This document shows positions 13,588 through 23,234 of a stretch of DNA of 53,152 nt, piece after piece. The stretch spans positions 1 through 53,152 of the forward strand of contig JAGCPW010000010.1 in assembly GCA_017965495.1 (NCBI GenBank), in the 5' to 3' direction. The DNA is from Eubacterium sp. (GTDB lineage: Bacteria > Bacillota > Clostridia > Lachnospirales > Lachnospiraceae). The notes beneath the pieces were generated by a model. That model was not told where the DNA came from and made no database searches. It was given only the letters and a program-made list of their open reading frames with translations. Numbering within the stretch: the first letter of the stretch is position 1; every line of letters starts with the position of its first letter. The translations under genes and the position numbers were made by a program.

Positions 13588-13609
13588 CAAAGAAAAGCGG
13601 TTGATATGC

Positions 13610-13660
13610 AAAAAGAGAGTGATTCCGAACGACTTTTCTAGTGAGGAACACTCTCTTTTT
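13610..13660 (-). terminator. terminator of the beta-helix gene with conserved 18-nt loop
   Basis: In transcript sense: outer stem of 12 bp (AAAAAGAGAGTG with CACTCTCTTTTT), one bulged U, an inner 4-bp stem UUCC/GGAA, and an 18-nt loop UCACUAGAAAAGUCGUUC (plus-strand positions 13627-13644). The T-run ends the 3' arm, 9 bases after the stop codon region of the 13670-17221 gene. The identical 18-nt loop occurs in the hairpin at 21760-21817 on different stems. A loop this long is unusual for an intrinsic terminator. Confidence 0.85.
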
Positions 13661-13669
13661 GTTATCTAA

Positions 13670-16600
13670 TTATTTCTTTCTCTTAAGGCTTTTAAGAAGA
13701 ACTTTTTTAGGTTTCTTTTTACCCTTTACTTTAATCTTCTTTCTAACCTTTTTGGCGAAGGCATTCTTAGCTACTTTCTTAAGTGCTTTACCTTTAATCT
13801 TAACCTTCTTAAGCTTCTTACTATCGATAAACGCCTTTGCTTTTATTGTCTTAACCTTTGCTCCGATAGTTAGATTCTTGAGTTTCTTACACTTCTTGAA
13901 TGCTTTCTTACCAATCTCTACTATCTTAAGTTTGTATCCACGGTATGAAACGCTAGACTTGATAGTTGCTTTCTTAAGTTTCTTCTGATACTTCTTAACA
14001 ACCTTAGTCAAAGCAACTGAGCCAGCTTTACCTGATACAGCTTTCACTTTGTATACGTACTTGCCTGATGTGAATGACTGTCCAACCTTAAGAGTATTCT
14101 TAACTGGGTTAACAGGTTTCTTATCAGGATTTACTGGTGGTGTTGGAGGTACTGGATCATCTTTTTCCATTCTATCTAGATAATCTTGATCTGTCATTTC
14201 CCAAACAGGAATTTCGTCATCCTTTGACATACGCTCTTTGGCGATGTCTTTTTCTGCGTACTCATCTACTGTTGGAGTTTCGCCCTGCTCATATACAGGA
14301 TTTACATTACCCTGTTGTGAGTAATAGTCAGGAAGTGAGATGGACTCCTCGTTACAATAACTTAGAAGTTGCTGTAATGCGTATCCACCGCCTGCACCTG
14401 CGCCTGTTCTAATACCTGCTGTTGTGTTGTTAATTACGTGGTTTATACCTACCTGTGGTCCAGAACCATTAGCAATCTCAACTATAACAGCATTCTCAAT
14501 CATTACATCTGGTTTGTTTGGAACTTCTATAGCATTATCCAAGTGAATGCTTGCTCCATTTGTATTAATAAATACATCGTATATACCTAGGGCTACTGCA
14601 TAATGGCTATCAACATTATCTGTTACCTTGTATGCAGCGAAGCCTTTCTTTTCTCCATCGTGACTCATCCAACCATCCTGGCTTTGAGGATCATAGCACT
14701 TCTCATTCTGTAAGAAGAATGTTGATCCAGCATTTCCGCGCCAAATGATGTCATACTCTTGGAAGTGCTCGCAGAACAATCCGTAAGCTGTCACATTATC
14801 ACCGTTTATTATTGCACCGTTCTTAGATTTGTTTGTCCACCAACCTGTGTTATCTCCGTGGTCAGCTCTCCAAATCCAAGTGTGGTCAATAATTGTATTG
14901 TTACTATTAATTACTAGACATGTATCTACTGTTCCTCTGTGTTTAGCTCCACCTACACGGTAAATGATATCGTGAAGAACTGTTGGGTTTTCTGAGTGAT
15001 CTTTATTACATCCTTCTTCACCAATCTGAACCAAACTATCTGAATGATATCCAGCGTCTATCAACAATCCTGCCAAACATACACCGCCCACATCTGATAC
15101 TTTGATGGCTGTGTCTGAATTATCAGGAACGATTGTAGCAAGACCAAGTCCTAGAAGAATCTGGTCATTCTTTGTAACCTTAAGTGGCTCATCTACGTGA
15201 TAAATACCTGGCTGGAATATGATATTCATACCCTTCTTAAGCTGAGCATTTAATGTCTTTGCATCGTCCTTATCAGGATTAGCAATATAGAAACATTTAT
15301 CAACACTTAGAGATGTTCCCTGTCCCATATCTTCTTCTGTCCAAGAAACACCATTAGAATTCTTTCTAAGAGCTGGTACAAATACTTTGTAGCTGTCGCT
15401 CTCTTCGTCAAAGTATAAGAATGGTTTTTCTCTATCTACTGGAGTTCTATTAACAATTGTATTGTGTCCACGCTTATCCCAGTTAGTCTTACCAGAGATA
15501 TTTTTCAAATCTGCATAACCTGCAGTATTTATTGGATCACCACTACATCCTTGAAGCATTTGATTCCAGTTAACACCGTATGCTTCTCCGTACATCTGAC
15601 AGTTTCTATAATAATATTGTTGCTGTGAAAAAGATCCACATGGCTTATGGAATACTGAATCAGCTATAAATCCACCACTGGCCCAACCATAGTACCAGTC
15701 AAATGTTGATCTTCTTTCAATATTAAGTCTTCTAGCTGGAGCTGCCTGTGATGCACTCCACTGGAAGTTGTAGTATGGGTCATCATTATTGTCAGTATCT
15801 ACAATAGAGGCATTTTCAAATCCTACCCAGAAATTACATGTAGCATTATTGCCCGATAGAGCTGCAGGCACTTTAACGTTTCTTAGTTTTGTATCTGTTG
15901 GCACTTTGCCTAAGCCTAATATTTGTGTGTAATAACCAATATTAAATGTGTCTACCTCTGCATCTGTTCTTACATAGTTTCCAGGTTTAAATGCAAGAGT
16001 ATATCTATCTTCTCCAAATTGGTTATAATGCTGCTTAGCAAAAATATCAGCAGTTATTTTATTAATATCAGCAGCTTTATCTGTATCATTAAATACATAC
16101 ATATTCTTACCAAACATATTTATTTCAATAGATGCTGGATCAGAAAATGGTCCGATATCTGCTGAGTTTTTACCTCTTATCTTATAGTAGTTTTTATACT
16201 GTGACTCATTTGGGTTAGTGTCTAAGTAACTAGTTTCTGTAACTGTGTCTAGTAATTCATAGTCACCAAAACGACTCACTGAACGGTAAACATCATACAT
16301 AGTAGATCCATTAGATGCTTCCCAATTTAATTTCATTCCATCATCAGTTTTTTCAAGAGTAATGTCTTCTACTTTCTCAGGTTTATAATCATCTAGAGTG
16401 GTAGCTGATACTGGAGCACAGTCTTTGTATGCATCGTTTTCTTCTACTCTAGTTATTGTTCTAACCTTTACATAGTATTTAGTACTAAGTGATAGACCTT
16501 TTACTTCAAAGTTAGTATCACCAGTTACTCCTGCTGATTTATATTCTCCATCTTCAGATGTTGAATACAATACTTCATATCCAGAATAGATACACTTATC

Positions 16601-17221
16601 TACTTCTTTCCATGAAACTTCAATAGATGTACCTGACACTTCACCTACTGTCAAATCTGTAACAGCATTAGGTTTAGTAACTGTATAAGGAATAAACTTT
16701 TCGTTGTTTGATACCTTCTCGCCTTCGTCTACTTTAATTTCAACTAAGCTAAATACATCTCCATCTAATGTAAAGTATTTACCATTGGCATTACTTCTAA
16801 AAGCAACTGTACCGTCGCCCTGAGATTCCATTCTTACAGATTCCCATCCACTTGGATTAGTTCTTCTGCCCATCTGGAACACTTTATCATTATCAGCTTT
16901 CCAACTTGTATTAGTTCCTTTACAAGTGAAGTTCATAATTGTTTTGTCGGCGAAGTAGTTTGTTCCTGCTCCATAGTAAATTGTAAACTTACCATTATCA
17001 GGAACAGAATCTTCCCCGTTGTACACAGTTGTAATATCGATAGGGTCGTTCTGAACTCCGTTTAATGTAATGAGCTTTCCTGTTGCTACTGAAACAAAAT
17101 AAACTTCAGCATTAATAACAGGATCATCAGCTTTTACCATCTGAGTTTCCATAGGTAAATATCCCACTGTTAGTGCTACCATCAAAGCAATAGTTAGCAC
17201 TCTTTTAATTAATTTTTTCAT
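13670..17221 (-). CDS. large exported beta-helix protein with Fn3 and lysine-rich LRR tail
   Basis: 1183 residues from the ATG at 17221, chosen because GGGAG precedes it and a signal peptide (1-31, ending MVKA) follows at once. Domains: fascin/beta-trefoil-like region (35-180), two fibronectin III domains (184-276, 281-366), then about 600 residues of right-handed beta-helix related to GH55-like actinobacterial proteins labelled coagulation factor 5/8 or adenylyl cyclase (QILGLGKVP, ASQAAPARR, SGGFIADS, SQQQYYYR, DHTWIWRADHG). After a Pro-rich linker comes a Lys-rich leucine-rich-repeat tail of BspA type (GKKAFKKCKKLKNLTIG). Probably a surface carbohydrate-active or carbohydrate-binding protein; the cyclase label is not credible for an exported protein. 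Substrate unknown. No LPXTG motif, so the basic tail may hold it to the wall. Confidence 0.8.
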   Translation of the reverse strand: MKKLIKRVLTIALMVALTVGYLPMETQMVKADDPVINAEVYFVSVATGKLITLNGVQNDPIDITTVYNGEDSVPDNGKFTIYYGAGTNYFADKTIMNFTCKGTNTSWKADNDKVFQMGRRTNPSGWESVRMESQGDGTVAFRSNANGKYFTLDGDVFSLVEIKVDEGEKVSNNEKFIPYTVTKPNAVTDLTVGEVSGTSIEVSWKEVDKCIYSGYEVLYSTSEDGEYKSAGVTGDTNFEVKGLSLSTKYYVKVRTITRVEENDAYKDCAPVSATTLDDYKPEKVEDITLEKTDDGMKLNWEASNGSTMYDVYRSVSRFGDYELLDTVTETSYLDTNPNESQYKNYYKIRGKNSADIGPFSDPASIEINMFGKNMYVFNDTDKAADINKITADIFAKQHYNQFGEDRYTLAFKPGNYVRTDAEVDTFNIGYYTQILGLGKVPTDTKLRNVKVPAALSGNNATCNFWVGFENASIVDTDNNDDPYYNFQWSASQAAPARRLNIERRSTFDWYYGWASGGFIADSVFHKPCGSFSQQQYYYRNCQMYGEAYGVNWNQMLQGCSGDPINTAGYADLKNISGKTNWDKRGHNTIVNRTPVDREKPFLYFDEESDSYKVFVPALRKNSNGVSWTEEDMGQGTSLSVDKCFYIANPDKDDAKTLNAQLKKGMNIIFQPGIYHVDEPLKVTKNDQILLGLGLATIVPDNSDTAIKVSDVGGVCLAGLLIDAGYHSDSLVQIGEEGCNKDHSENPTVLHDIIYRVGGAKHRGTVDTCLVINSNNTIIDHTWIWRADHGDNTGWWTNKSKNGAIINGDNVTAYGLFCEHFQEYDIIWRGNAGSTFFLQNEKCYDPQSQDGWMSHDGEKKGFAAYKVTDNVDSHYAVALGIYDVFINTNGASIHLDNAIEVPNKPDVMIENAVIVEIANGSGPQVGINHVINNTTAGIRTGAGAGGGYALQQLLSYCNEESISLPDYYSQQGNVNPVYEQGETPTVDEYAEKDIAKERMSKDDEIPVWEMTDQDYLDRMEKDDPVPPTPPVNPDKKPVNPVKNTLKVGQSFTSGKYVYKVKAVSGKAGSVALTKVVKKYQKKLKKATIKSSVSYRGYKLKIVEIGKKAFKKCKKLKNLTIGAKVKTIKAKAFIDSKKLKKVKIKGKALKKVAKNAFAKKVRKKIKVKGKKKPKKVLLKSLKRKK

Positions 17222-17359
17222 AATAAAACTCCCTTTATTAATAATTCTCAATTTTTGATTTTTCCGCAACTTTTGCCATTTTTTATTCTATAAAACAAAG
17301 TTGATAAAAACAATATAATAACTATCGCATTATTCAGTATAGGTATTCATTTTTTACCA

Positions 17360-19568: not shown

Positions 19569-20378
19569 ATGAGTAGATTAAAGGTGGCTTTATTGTTATT
19601 TAGCTTGGGATTTATCTTTATAGTTTTAGATATTCCTATTGCTACTAACCTATCTTATCCACACAATTACGAAAACTCTAAAAAAGTGATTGGCGAATAT
19701 CAATATTACAATATCGCTTCTAATTACGGCGCCACTTGTACTTACAAAATGTTAGACGATTCTAAGTCCAAGACAAAGGAACCGGAAACTAAAATCAATC
19801 AGCAAAAAGGCATCAGATCATCAGCGCCAAAACTCACAAAGGTTATCGATAAAGTTTATTTTAAAAATGTACAAATAGATATATTTAGCGACTTCGCTGG
19901 ATTCTTATTTATATTAATAGGAAGTATCTTGATTATTAAATGTGCTAGACAGTTCAAACTTGCTATTCTTACATCTGTTGCAGGTTTGATTGTTCACGGT
20001 ATTATGTTTGCTCTGCCATTCATAATTAATGGCATTGACCTAGTAAATGCATCATTTTTTATTGGTATGATTTATCTTGCTATTAATGTAGCAACAATCT
20101 ATTTGATAACAGCGGCATTGCTTAGAATGATTCCTGGTCCATGGTGTAGGGATGAAAGAAAATGGTGTAAGATTCTTTGGTTCGCATCTTTTGCATCTCA
20201 ATGTCTTGCCACTTTCACATTTTGGCTTGGATCAGATTTCGGAATGTTAAAAGCATTGGCGTGGGTAATCTTCGGATTTACTATTTTTATTCAGTTAGCA
20301 TTTTGGTACATCTATATGCGTGCCAAAGATTATATAAGGGGTACTTATGAAAAGTATTATGTTAAAACGAGCAATTAA
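19569..20378 (+). CDS. polytopic membrane protein of unknown function
   Basis: 269 residues. One N-terminal helix (5-27), an extracellular domain of about 80 residues rich in Lys/Ser/Thr (28-105, with DDSKSKTKEPETK), then four or five membrane helices (about 108-125, 130-152, 158-185, 200-220, 228-250). No recognised motif. GGAGG lies 6 bases before the ATG. Its last 32 bases overlap the next gene, so both are made together. ComEC combines a membrane channel with a metallo-beta-lactamase domain; this pair looks superficially like a two-piece version, but no Competence-domain motif is visible, so I do not name it as such. Confidence 0.7.
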   Translation: MSRLKVALLLFSLGFIFIVLDIPIATNLSYPHNYENSKKVIGEYQYYNIASNYGATCTYKMLDDSKSKTKEPETKINQQKGIRSSAPKLTKVIDKVYFKNVQIDIFSDFAGFLFILIGSILIIKCARQFKLAILTSVAGLIVHGIMFALPFIINGIDLVNASFFIGMIYLAINVATIYLITAALLRMIPGPWCRDERKWCKILWFASFASQCLATFTFWLGSDFGMLKALAWVIFGFTIFIQLAFWYIYMRAKDYIRGTYEKYYVKTSN

Positions 20379-21750
20379 AATATTTGTCTTTGTGTTTGCT
20401 GCTTTGGGATTGTTTGCAGTCTCAAAAGTTCAAGCTAATGCGGGCGAACTTAAAATGCACACCATTTATGTAGGACACGGTGATTGCATTCTTTTGGAGA
20501 GTAAGGGCCACTATATGCTAGTGGACAGCGGAGAGGCTTCCGCCAAAGATACTATTTTAAACTACCTAGAAAAACATGTAGTGGGTGACACTATTGATTA
20601 TGTAGTAGCAACTCACGGCGACAAAGATCATATCGGTAGTTTCCCAGCTATCTTCAAAAAATATGAAATTAAAAATTTGGTTTACTCTGAACCTGAAAAA
20701 CCTTACACTAATCCAGATACTGGTAAGGAATCACACTTTGGAAAATTTGTGGATGCTATAAACGAAGAAGAAGGTTTAGTATATGGAAATCCATTCGAGG
20801 GTCAAACTTGGACATTTGGCGATGCCTCAGTGAAGGTTATATATGATGGCAGAAAAGGAACCACTTACAATGAATCAAGTATTGTGACAAAAGTCACTTG
20901 CGATGGCAAATCTATTTTGATGACTGGCGACCTTCCTACTACTATGGAAGAAAAACTTATGCCAAAGAAATATGATTTGAAGGCAGATATTTTGAAGGTG
21001 GGACATCACGGAGCTGCTGCTTCCACTTCTGCAGATTTCTTAGACTATGTAAAACCTACACACGCAGTTATACCAAATGGTTATACGGAACAGGGTGAGT
21101 ATTTCCCAAGAGATTCTGTTTTGCAAAGACTTGCTCTTAGATTTATCAAGACATATCTAGCCACTGAGGGCGATATCGTTATGAATATAAAGAATGGTGT
21201 GATTTCAACTACCCACAAAGAGAACACTAAATTCCAGTGTATCTCTAGGGGACAGATTGTAGTGATCGGTAGCAAGTTCTATGCATCAAACACTATTGGC
21301 AAAAAGGTTACACCAAAGATTCATGTTTACGCAAACGGTGAACTAATTTCAAGCAAGCATTACAACATTTCATACAAAGATGCTACGCACACAGGAATTG
21401 CCACTGTTAAGGTAACTGGTACTAAAGAAAAATATGTGGGTACTTTAAGCACCACTTTTTCTCTTCTACCTAGATTGTCAAAAATAACAAGTTATTCAAG
21501 ATCTAAGAATAAGAAGAAAATAAAACTTCAGTGGAGCGCACAAAACTACGCAAGCGGATATACTATCTGGTATTCATCGGATAAGAATATGGAAAAAGAC
21601 TCCCACAAGATTACAGTCAAAGGCGGAAAGAATAACAAAAAGACTCTCAAAGGACTTAAGAAAAAGAAGAAAAAATATTACGTTAAGATACAGGCATTCA
21701 AAGACGGTATCGGAAAAGGTAAATGGACTACCAAAAAATGTATTAAATAA
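20347..21750 (+). CDS. exported ComEC-like metallo-beta-lactamase-fold protein
   Basis: 467 residues: signal peptide (1-32), metallo-beta-lactamase domain (34-270) of the ComEC/Rec2 C-terminal class, an Ig-like region (about 305-375) and a Lys-rich Fn3-like tail (378-467). Metal ligands are intact: H90-x-D92-x-D94-H95, D195 (MTGD) and H220-H221. ComEC-type domains are thought to degrade the incoming DNA strand; free exported versions may act as nucleases or phosphodiesterases. AGGGG lies five bases upstream, inside the overlapping end of the previous gene. Behind it is a terminator with the conserved 18-nt loop. Confidence 0.85.
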   Translation: MKSIMLKRAIKIFVFVFAALGLFAVSKVQANAGELKMHTIYVGHGDCILLESKGHYMLVDSGEASAKDTILNYLEKHVVGDTIDYVVATHGDKDHIGSFPAIFKKYEIKNLVYSEPEKPYTNPDTGKESHFGKFVDAINEEEGLVYGNPFEGQTWTFGDASVKVIYDGRKGTTYNESSIVTKVTCDGKSILMTGDLPTTMEEKLMPKKYDLKADILKVGHHGAAASTSADFLDYVKPTHAVIPNGYTEQGEYFPRDSVLQRLALRFIKTYLATEGDIVMNIKNGVISTTHKENTKFQCISRGQIVVIGSKFYASNTIGKKVTPKIHVYANGELISSKHYNISYKDATHTGIATVKVTGTKEKYVGTLSTTFSLLPRLSKITSYSRSKNKKKIKLQWSAQNYASGYTIWYSSDKNMEKDSHKITVKGGKNNKKTLKGLKKKKKKYYVKIQAFKDGIGKGKWTTKKCIK

Positions 21751-21759
21751 TTTTTCCCA

Positions 21760-21817
21760 AAACAAAAAGACGTACGGGTTCACTAGAAAAGTCGTTCACC
21801 CATACGTCTTTTTGTTT
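21760..21817 (+). terminator. terminator with the same conserved 18-nt loop
   Basis: Outer stem of 15 bp (AAACAAAAAGACGTA with TACGTCTTTTTGTTT), a C/A mismatch, inner 4-bp stem GGGU/ACCC, and loop UCACUAGAAAAGUCGUUC at 21780-21797. The loop is identical, in mRNA sense of the exported-protein gene, to the one at 13627-13644. A- and T-runs on both sides make it usable also for the convergent FAD oxidoreductase gene. Confidence 0.88.
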
Positions 21818-21836
21818 GTAACTATTTATTACATTT

Positions 21837-23234
21837 TTAATAGAGAGATTCATTTCCTCCTGTAATTAAGTTTGAAATGTATCTACTTACGTATACGCCT
21901 TCTGCTGAGGCTTGAGATAAAGAATGTGTGGTACCTGAGCTGTCTCCAATAAAGAACAAACCTTTTTGTTCACTCTCAAGATGCTCATCCAGCTCTATCT
22001 TTGAATTATAGAATTTAACTTCTGTACCATATAGCAAGTTGTCATAGTTTGCAGTACCTGGTACCAATTTATCTAGGGCAAATATCATTTCTATAATAGT
22101 ATCTAGTGTGGCCTTTGGCATACAAAGTGCCAAGTTACCCGGGCTAGCCTCTAGAGTAGGTCTAACAAAGCTTTCGCGAAGTCGCTTAGCATTAGTTCTT
22201 CTCTCCTCTAGCAAGTCACCAAATCTTTGAACCATAACTCCGCCTGATAACATATTTGCTAGGTTAGCCACATGCTCACCGTATGCGTTTGAGTCTTTGA
22301 ATGGCTCAGTAAATTTATGTGTAACTAAAAGTGCGAAGTTAGTATTGTTTGTATAAAGTTTTGGATCATCGTAACTGTGACCGTTCACTGTTACTATTCC
22401 GTTTGTGTTCTCTGCCACCACTTCTCCGTGAGGATTCATACAAAATGTTCTGCAGACACTTCTAGTCTTAGGTGAACGATACATAATCTTACTCTCGTAT
22501 ACGCTATCTGTGATTGGCTCCCAAACTTCAGCTGGACACTCAAATCTAATACCAATATCTACTCGGTTGTTTTCATTTGCAATGCCAAACTTTTCTGTTA
22601 GTTTTGAAACCCAAGCAGAACCACTTCTGCCCGCTGCCACTATCACATACTTAGCCTCGAAAGAATCTCCATCCTCGCAAGTAACTTTCCAATCATCTTT
22701 CGACTTTTCAATATCTACCACATCTTTGTAGCACTGAATTTCAATGTTATCTGAAATATGATTTATTATATTATCTAATATATAGTAGTTTCTCTCTGTT
22801 CCAAGATGGCGAACTTCAGCATCTAGCATATGCAAGTCGAACTGAAGAGCTCTTCTCTTTAAGTCTGAGCCCACAGTAGAATATTTCTTGGCGTCTTTGC
22901 CGCCGAATTCTAAATTGATAGAATCCACATAGTTCATCAACTTAATCGCTGGTTCATCTCCCACGTACTCGTAAAAGTCTCCGCCAAAGTTGTTTGTAAT
23001 ATTGTACTTTCCATCTGAAAAAGCTCCCGCTCCTCCAATACCTGTTGTGATTGAGCAGTGCTGACAGTTAATACAATTCTTAACTTCGTCTCCGTCTATT
23101 GGACATTTGCGCTCTTTAAGAGTTGGTCCCTTTTCCAAAAGACAAACTTTTAAATCTGGATTATTTTTATTGAACTCGTAAGCTGCAAACAGTCCTCCTG
23201 CTCCACCGCCCACAATAATTACATCGTACTTCAT
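21837..23234 (-). CDS. FAD-dependent dehydrogenase (COG2509-like)
   Basis: 465 residues. N-terminal dinucleotide-binding motif GGGAGGLFAAYEF (9-21) and a second nucleotide segment VIVAAGRSGSAWV near 200. A cysteine group C-x-N-C-x-x-C in the stretch VKNCINCQHC, followed by GIGGAGAFSDGKYN, is typical of the uncharacterised FAD-dependent dehydrogenases of anaerobes. C-terminal FIGDSSGTTHSLSQASAEGVYVS closes the FAD site. It follows the flavodiiron gene by 21 bases with AAGGAG before its ATG, which suggests a redox link, but electron donor and acceptor are unknown. Confidence 0.85.
   Translation of the reverse strand: MKYDVIIVGGGAGGLFAAYEFNKNNPDLKVCLLEKGPTLKERKCPIDGDEVKNCINCQHCSITTGIGGAGAFSDGKYNITNNFGGDFYEYVGDEPAIKLMNYVDSINLEFGGKDAKKYSTVGSDLKRRALQFDLHMLDAEVRHLGTERNYYILDNIINHISDNIEIQCYKDVVDIEKSKDDWKVTCEDGDSFEAKYVIVAAGRSGSAWVSKLTEKFGIANENNRVDIGIRFECPAEVWEPITDSVYESKIMYRSPKTRSVCRTFCMNPHGEVVAENTNGIVTVNGHSYDDPKLYTNNTNFALLVTHKFTEPFKDSNAYGEHVANLANMLSGGVMVQRFGDLLEERRTNAKRLRESFVRPTLEASPGNLALCMPKATLDTIIEMIFALDKLVPGTANYDNLLYGTEVKFYNSKIELDEHLESEQKGLFFIGDSSGTTHSLSQASAEGVYVSRYISNLITGGNESLY

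Follow-up and report, generated by a model that had tools for sequence, protein, structure and literature searches.

Two hairpins with one tip

The question raised by this locus is why two hairpins at separate gene ends should display the same 18 bases at their tips while their stems differ. The window, meaning the whole stretch of 53,152 nucleotides that was analysed, is contig C89 of a 1.66 Mb assembly in 97 contigs (G000, the own genome below). It contains two exact matches of TCACTAGAAAAGTCGTTC, and no further match was found in it at up to three mismatches. The positions of the two hairpins and of their parts are as follows.

13604..13666, minus strand: hairpin copy 1, with bidirectional-terminator anatomy and conserved tip (model match, 71.4 bits)
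13627..13644, minus strand: tip TCACTAGAAAAGTCGTTC of copy 1 (exact match)
13656..13660, minus strand: A-tract in the 5' arm of copy 1, a T-tract for opposite transcription (sequence)
13610..13614, minus strand: T-tract in the 3' arm of copy 1 (sequence)
21758..21819, plus strand: hairpin copy 2 (model match, 66.2 bits)
21780..21797, plus strand: tip TCACTAGAAAAGTCGTTC of copy 2 (exact match)
21764..21768, plus strand: A-tract in the 5' arm of copy 2 (sequence; spacing as in the family)
21809..21813, plus strand: T-tract in the 3' arm of copy 2 (sequence; spacing as in the family)

As the first-pass annotation of this DNA had claimed, the identical 18 bases sit at two hairpin tips, and both stretches fold (13600-13670 at -24.5 kcal/mol, z -6.6; 21755-21825 at -24.9 kcal/mol, z -6.0). 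Its view that chance would not produce such a match was borne out by shuffling the window, which gave an expectation of 0.04 for TCACTAGAAAAGTCGTTC and two matches in none of 100 shuffles. The one-base irregularity that it had placed at the same depth in both hairpins is there as well, 4 bp under the loop, as a bulged U in copy 1 and a C/A mismatch in copy 2. What had been described as an 18-nt loop is indeed the hairpin tip, but it is not wholly open: bases 3-4 can pair with bases 15-16, and positions 3 and 16 covary. Since both hairpins carry an A-tract and a T-tract, they may terminate transcription from either side.

Copy 1 lies downstream of a gene at 13670-17269 on the minus strand. The product of this gene had been taken for a beta-helix protein; its Pfam matches are to fn3 and BspA-type LRR (LRR_5), with no match to a beta-helix family. 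The ortholog of copy 1 in a congener (G016, locus L128) has kept the stem. Copy 2 is flanked by convergent genes at 20347-21750 (plus strand) and 21837-23234 (minus strand), the upstream one encoding a metallo-beta-lactamase fold, and has orthologs in G016, G003 and G021. No Rfam family matched the window at the gathering score. A permissive Rfam search of six loci returned one tRNA above gathering, not at the hairpin, and 12 other listed matches, all far under gathering; the best of these, MIR8562 (E 0.0009), reached 37.7 bits where 211 are needed. Some of the 12 overlapped tip hairpins and were taken for chance matches to AT-rich palindromes.

A family of hairpins in the own genome

When the 18-mer was searched in the own genome at up to three mismatches, 24 places were found, compared to five for the reversed control, and 23 of the 24 proved to be hairpin tips (L015 being the exception). 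A covariance model added six copies, for a total of 29. Apart from the A/T tracts and a weak AGGNNC/GNNNCCT pattern the stems have little in common, yet in most copies the pairing holds. Stems shared along with the tip, as simple recent duplication would leave them, are mostly absent and were seen in two cases, each with a common inner stem: L020 and L021, 2.1 kb apart, and two copies at a dGTPase-like gene (L008). The members of each pair look like relatives. As a general explanation, recent duplication of whole hairpins was ruled out by the differing, compensated stems.

Pairing was quantified in 94 model-aligned copies (92 distinct) from the carrier genomes described below. Standard pairs occupied 94.2% of the pair cells in this alignment, which was fitted to the model and so leans towards it, compared to 67.8% after shuffling; slid alignments reached at most 58%. 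Double changes were observed in 17 of the 20 pairs, with 502 double-changed cells against 133 in the shuffled set. An unfitted, gap-free alignment of 23 copies from the own genome gave 85.7% pairing versus 66.4%. The earlier impression of a loop that is kept on stems that change and stay paired thus describes a real motif, present in 23/24 places of the own genome and in 150 copies over eight genomes.

Terminator anatomy

The tracts stand at fixed places. Of 70 representatives, one for each ortholog group, every one has A at -14; T occupies +14 in 69 and +15 in 69. The span between the tracts is 35-41 nt in 99 of 111 tip hairpins, and the loop lies at a median of 34-38 nt downstream of the stop codon. 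A hairpin, a T-run after the gene and a mirrored A-run are all present, as in intrinsic bidirectional terminators, and judged by this anatomy the tip hairpins are predicted to terminate transcription. The same loci also hold 19 tip-less hairpins with both tracts, some of them within genes; a 4-nt loop is found in 12 of the 19, and the commonest body (5/19) consists of 8 bp, 4 nt and 8 bp. When these body sizes are set against the spans of the tip hairpins, the tip looks like a module placed on an ordinary terminator. In the outer stems of the 94 copies, G-U occupies six cells and A-C 13; there is thus no excess of G-U and no sign of one-strand RNA selection.

Distribution among related genomes

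Of 23 genomes of the genus searched with the covariance model (R1), eight yielded 14 to 40 matches, counts that include some hairpins matched on both strands; seven yielded 1-3 weak matches and eight none. The eight carriers are the own genome, G001, G003, G011, G016, G018, G019 and G021, and the other 15 genomes are referred to as non-carriers. Among the matches listed, the weak ones in non-carriers had other loops. In all, 150 copies were collected from the eight carriers, and a well-covered genome has ca. 20-30 or more. Further copies, on which the first-pass annotation had made its motif depend, were recovered from the own genome by the 18-mer, and from eight genomes of the genus, with covarying stems, by the covariance model.

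A model-independent check was made by searching TCACTWAMAATCGTTC exactly in five carriers and three non-carriers. It gave 84 copies (21 each in G021, G003 and G011, 20 in G019 and one in G016), with none in the non-carriers G008, G009 and G020; the reversed control gave no match. When 30 of the 84 loci were retrieved, every one was a hairpin tip, and 29 had both tracts at the fixed place. By hand count the copies comprised 46 of TAACAATC, 33 of TTAAAATC, five of TAAAAATC and none of TTACAATC. For the last type, a hand calculation assuming independence of the two positions would lead one to expect ca. 18 of the 84.

Among the named genomes searched, the exact 18-mer occurs in 'uncultured Eubacterium sp. 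Reindeer_2_mag_110' (five contigs) and in 'uncultured Lachnospiraceae bacterium RUG13824' (one contig). Both are metagenome-assembled genomes from rumen samples, and the carrier clade probably dwells in the rumen. A cyanobacterial match (L030) showed no hairpin and was attributed to chance; a phage origin was rejected, the 18-mer and the closed 16-mer both being absent from the viral contigs. A second model (R2) was run on 295 genomes of the order with stricter filters and 18 candidates scored per genome, the own genome itself giving 18 copies. Matches at E<=0.001 were obtained in 11 genomes, the own one included; outside it there were 1-3 weak matches per genome, 13 altogether, and the 10 inspected all had unrelated loops. 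By model search, the family appears confined to one clade of one genus and absent from the wider order as sampled.

The folded tip

The tip consensus is UCRCU-N4..7-UCGYUC, and the module as a whole can be written NNC-[UCRCU-N4..7-UCGYUC]-GNNN on a stem of ca. 8 bp. Over the 150 copies, positions 3/16 are A-U in 133, G-C in 14, G-U in two and otherwise combined in one. Positions 1/18 (U·C in 134, G·U in 11), 2/17 (C·U in 144) and 5/14 (U·C in 148) are nearly always a mismatch or wobble, the common ones reading G·A, A·G and G·A on the complement. The complement was the more stable strand in 89 of 94 copies with RNA parameters and in 82 with DNA parameters; with the former, its mean fold energy was -29.5 kcal/mol versus -26.5 for the sense strand (n=94). 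Of the two strands, the complement (GAACGA...AGTGA, with G·A pairs in tandem) is the likelier to fold. A likeness of this tip, with its G·A pairs, to the kink-turn and the hammerhead was weighed and dropped. At 3/16 the intermediates are G-U on the sense strand (two copies) and never A-C, and a sense-strand G-U (11 copies) is likewise the most frequent variant at 1/18, so that the wobble variants lean weakly towards folding of the sense strand.

Partial forms of the tip (17-nt, odd 16- and 18-nt) are found at different loci. After a HIT gene in G016, a decayed tip sits on an intact stem, and single tips are thus dispensable.

Placement and neighbouring genes

With gene directions taken from our own ORF caller, the 150 copies are distributed as 66 convergent, 39 tandem antisense, 28 tandem sense, eight divergent (not behind a called gene), eight at contig edges and one intragenic; the 70 representatives as 27 convergent, 16 tandem antisense, 18 tandem sense, three divergent and six at edges. 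Among the multi-genome ortholog groups, nine have antisense tips in all their members and eight have sense tips throughout. Canonical tips make up 25/28 of the sense copies, 32/39 of the antisense, 53/66 of the convergent and 8/8 of the divergent. On these gene calls, tip placement is blind to the transcribed strand. The common mRNA sense noted for the two window copies holds for that pair and fails as a rule, as the 18 sense and 16 antisense tandem representatives of the 70 groups indicate.

Antisense tips lie at prfB and a STAS/APH gene, and a sense tip at rpsR; further neighbours are argH and genes for RadA-like, AroE/AroD-like, dGTPase-like, YqeG-like and endonuclease III-like proteins (the names rpsR and argH and the last five of this list were assigned by eye). 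Exported proteins with lysine-rich tails, proposed on the strength of the two window genes, are not a family trait: neighbours such as rpsR, argH, prfB and the RadA-like and AroE-like genes rule out a family-wide link to export. In a divergent region at the AroE/AroD-like gene the tip hairpin is kept in five carriers (L005, L079, L083, L117 and L039); by the ORF calls there is no gene end there, yet the tip is kept. Replication-strand polarity was also considered, and no clear rule emerged: the sense tip is on the strand of positive GC skew in 64 of 150 copies, and in 39 of 102 where the skew is over 0.08, a slight lean only.

Tip dialects at orthologous sites

Long tips (17/18-nt, mostly 18-nt) make up 27/29 copies in the own genome and 13/15 in G016, versus 5/106 in the other six carriers, where 16/15-nt tips prevail, mostly the AACAA and TAAAA forms of 16 nt. 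Ortholog pairs share their tip class in 46 of 70 cases within the 16-nt group and in 7 of 8 between the own genome and G016, compared to 9 of 59 across the two groups. At one orthologous site (L024 in the own genome, L142 in G019) the stem positions are equal in 23/23 and the tip dialect is different. The own genome and G016 each have long tips where the other is without (L136/L124; rpsR).

At three genes the sites were inspected across genomes. At argH the tip is present in five of the six carriers having the site, with a plain terminator in G019; at rpsR it is again present in five of six (as a variant form in G016), with a plain terminator in G018; after the HIT gene, a different hairpin stands in G001 and G003, and the G011 copy is without a T-tract. 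Non-carriers have plain or other hairpins at these sites, or none in the stretch inspected. None of the three genes showed a clean empty site. As far as these comparisons go, the dialect pattern is one of parallel change at many loci, which we read as selection by a putative trans-acting reader, with ectopic copying as the main rival.

Beside the dGTPase-like gene, the G016 copy (L134) has by eye a left arm like that of L109 in G011 and a right arm like that of L008 in the own genome. Its stem is poor because the arms are mosaic around the tip. The mosaic could also be an assembly chimera.

What keeps the tip

This is a real, clade-limited, structured family, and its surprising features are the strand-blind placement and the dialect shifts. 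Our preferred explanation, tentative though nearly as probable as not, is that these are bidirectional intrinsic terminators whose folded tip is kept by a trans-acting reader of an extruded DNA hairpin or of single-stranded DNA. The short plain loop of a terminator would have been replaced by the folded tip module, and the tip would be retained by this putative reader, most likely a protein, which would recognise single-stranded DNA or DNA extruded as a hairpin or cruciform. Gene direction would be irrelevant because the reader would act on DNA, or on either strand. In the lineage of the window's species its preference would have shifted, and the tips at many loci would have followed in parallel. 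Chromosome upkeep, self-marking, recombination and insulation between convergent genes are candidate roles. The suggestion in the first-pass annotation of a folded-DNA recombination site doubling as a terminator comes closest of its ideas to the evidence, recombination being retained as one candidate role.

A fuller proposition, possible though on balance doubtful, is that of DNA-level recognition with genome-wide dialects, in which the folded tip rather than the linear word is read at tens of gene-end hairpins, and a specificity that shifted between sister species dragged the tips along at orthologous loci. If so, it would be a structural counterpart, in a Firmicute, of the DNA uptake dialects. 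If the reader is indeed a binder of DNA hairpins, a genome can hide a structure-read address system within its terminators.

An unlikely alternative, though the strongest of those weighed here, is that the tip or the whole hairpin spreads by copying, as a small selfish or passively converted repeat, with tips overwriting one another. Orthologous sites with the same stem and a wholly different tip (L024/L142) would be expected from it, as would the arms of L134, the pairs of the own genome that are common in stem and tip, However, in a search that covered the Y1 kind of transposase, Y1_Tnp (PF01797) was found in 0/8 carriers (assemblies 59-96% complete) and exceeded the cut-off in 5/15 non-carriers; the partial tip forms differ between loci, unlike exact copies; stems vary by compensation under constant tips; and homology near the tip seems too short for ordinary recombination.

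We consider it distinctly unlikely that there is no reader and that the tip simply caps terminators well, as a loop that folds fast or is stable in the manner of UUCG and became fixed in the clade. The terminator anatomy, the median distance from the stop codons and the advantage of ca. 3 kcal/mol for the complement strand (RNA parameters) all accord with such a cap. It would, however, favour one transcribed strand, and the representatives are split 18 versus 16; divergent sites keep the tip (8/8), most tip-less two-tract hairpins of the same loci (12/19) use 4-nt loops, and several dialects substitute for each other. Least probable, to the point of being improbable, is a protein or small RNA binding the loop in the mRNA 3' end: each window copy is in the sense direction of the gene before it and the G-U lean at 1/18 and 3/16 is weakly that of the sense strand, but antisense copies make up 16 of the 34 tandem representatives and all members of nine multi-genome groups, their tips are about as intact (32/39 versus 25/28), the neighbours are housekeeping genes, and with such strand counts an action on the sense loop alone, as first proposed, is unlikely.

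Comparison with known systems

The loop sequence of a terminator is usually treated as hardly mattering. In this family no part is more conserved than the tip, which is strand-blind and differs in a coordinated way from one sister species to the next, so that an unseen reader becomes testable. A literature search, which covered few subscription papers, found no description of such a terminator tip among the papers listed.

The DNA uptake sequences of Neisseriaceae and Pasteurellaceae (DUS/USS) are described as short dispersed words with clade dialects and a trans-acting reader, often occurring as inverted pairs at terminators; the inverted pairs make the stems, and DUS are present in thousands of copies, in genes too (PMC3630211). 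The present family resembles DUS in being dispersed and in having clade-specific dialects, its reader being putative; it differs in that the hairpin tip alone is conserved, in tens of copies, nearly all in hairpins, in a relative of the Lachnospiraceae. A DNA uptake sequence was rejected, as the word is not general in the DNA: hairpins hold 23/24 of the near-matches and 30/30 of the fetched 16-mers. The ComEC domain is found in 21/23 congeners, among carriers and non-carriers alike, and so is uninformative about competence.

REP/BIME elements are scattered extragenic hairpins that contain an internal mismatch and lie close to the 3' ends of genes, in both orientations; REPs have conserved stems with a GTAG-type foot and are associated with RAYT (Y1) transposases. 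In the present family it is the tip that is conserved, most stems being free, and a REP/RAYT element was rejected, Y1_Tnp being found in none of the eight carriers. The targets of ANTAR proteins (EutV) have conserved terminal-loop bases on hairpins beside intrinsic terminators; they lie in leader regions as pairs of hexaloops with A1 and G4 (PMC3369931). In contrast, our hairpins are single, with tips of 15-18 nt, mostly behind genes and in both orientations. An ANTAR target was rejected because there is no hexaloop pair with A1/G4, only single hairpins with UCRCU..UCGYUC tips.

Integron attC sites are hairpin DNA read by structure, in which the arms vary and one strand has an asymmetry of one base; their stem ends are conserved and the tip is free. 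Compared by the conserved part alone, the present sites are the reverse, with the tip conserved and the arms free, and they are single and lie behind housekeeping genes. Bacterial stem-loop families are, as we understand them, defined by the sequence of the whole repeat, whereas here essentially the tip alone is common. Those surveyed are dispersed foldable repeats, some thought to be terminators, and in the portion of the survey text examined neither 'conserved loop' nor 'loop sequence' occurs (PMC2267715).

Other hairpins in the genus

In non-carrier congeners, hairpins with differing stems are capped by another tip, CATGCTTGCATG or its complement (L171, L173, L174, L175, L178 after rpsR, L205, L208, L210 and L216). 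It has 15 exact copies in 11 of the 23 genomes, at most two per genome, of which some were inspected as hairpins, and was rejected as a member of the same family. After the HIT gene (L239/L240), G001 and G003 have in common a long inverted repeat (CAGCAG...CTGCTG) with a hairpin of its own, and this stretch may be a small mobile element.
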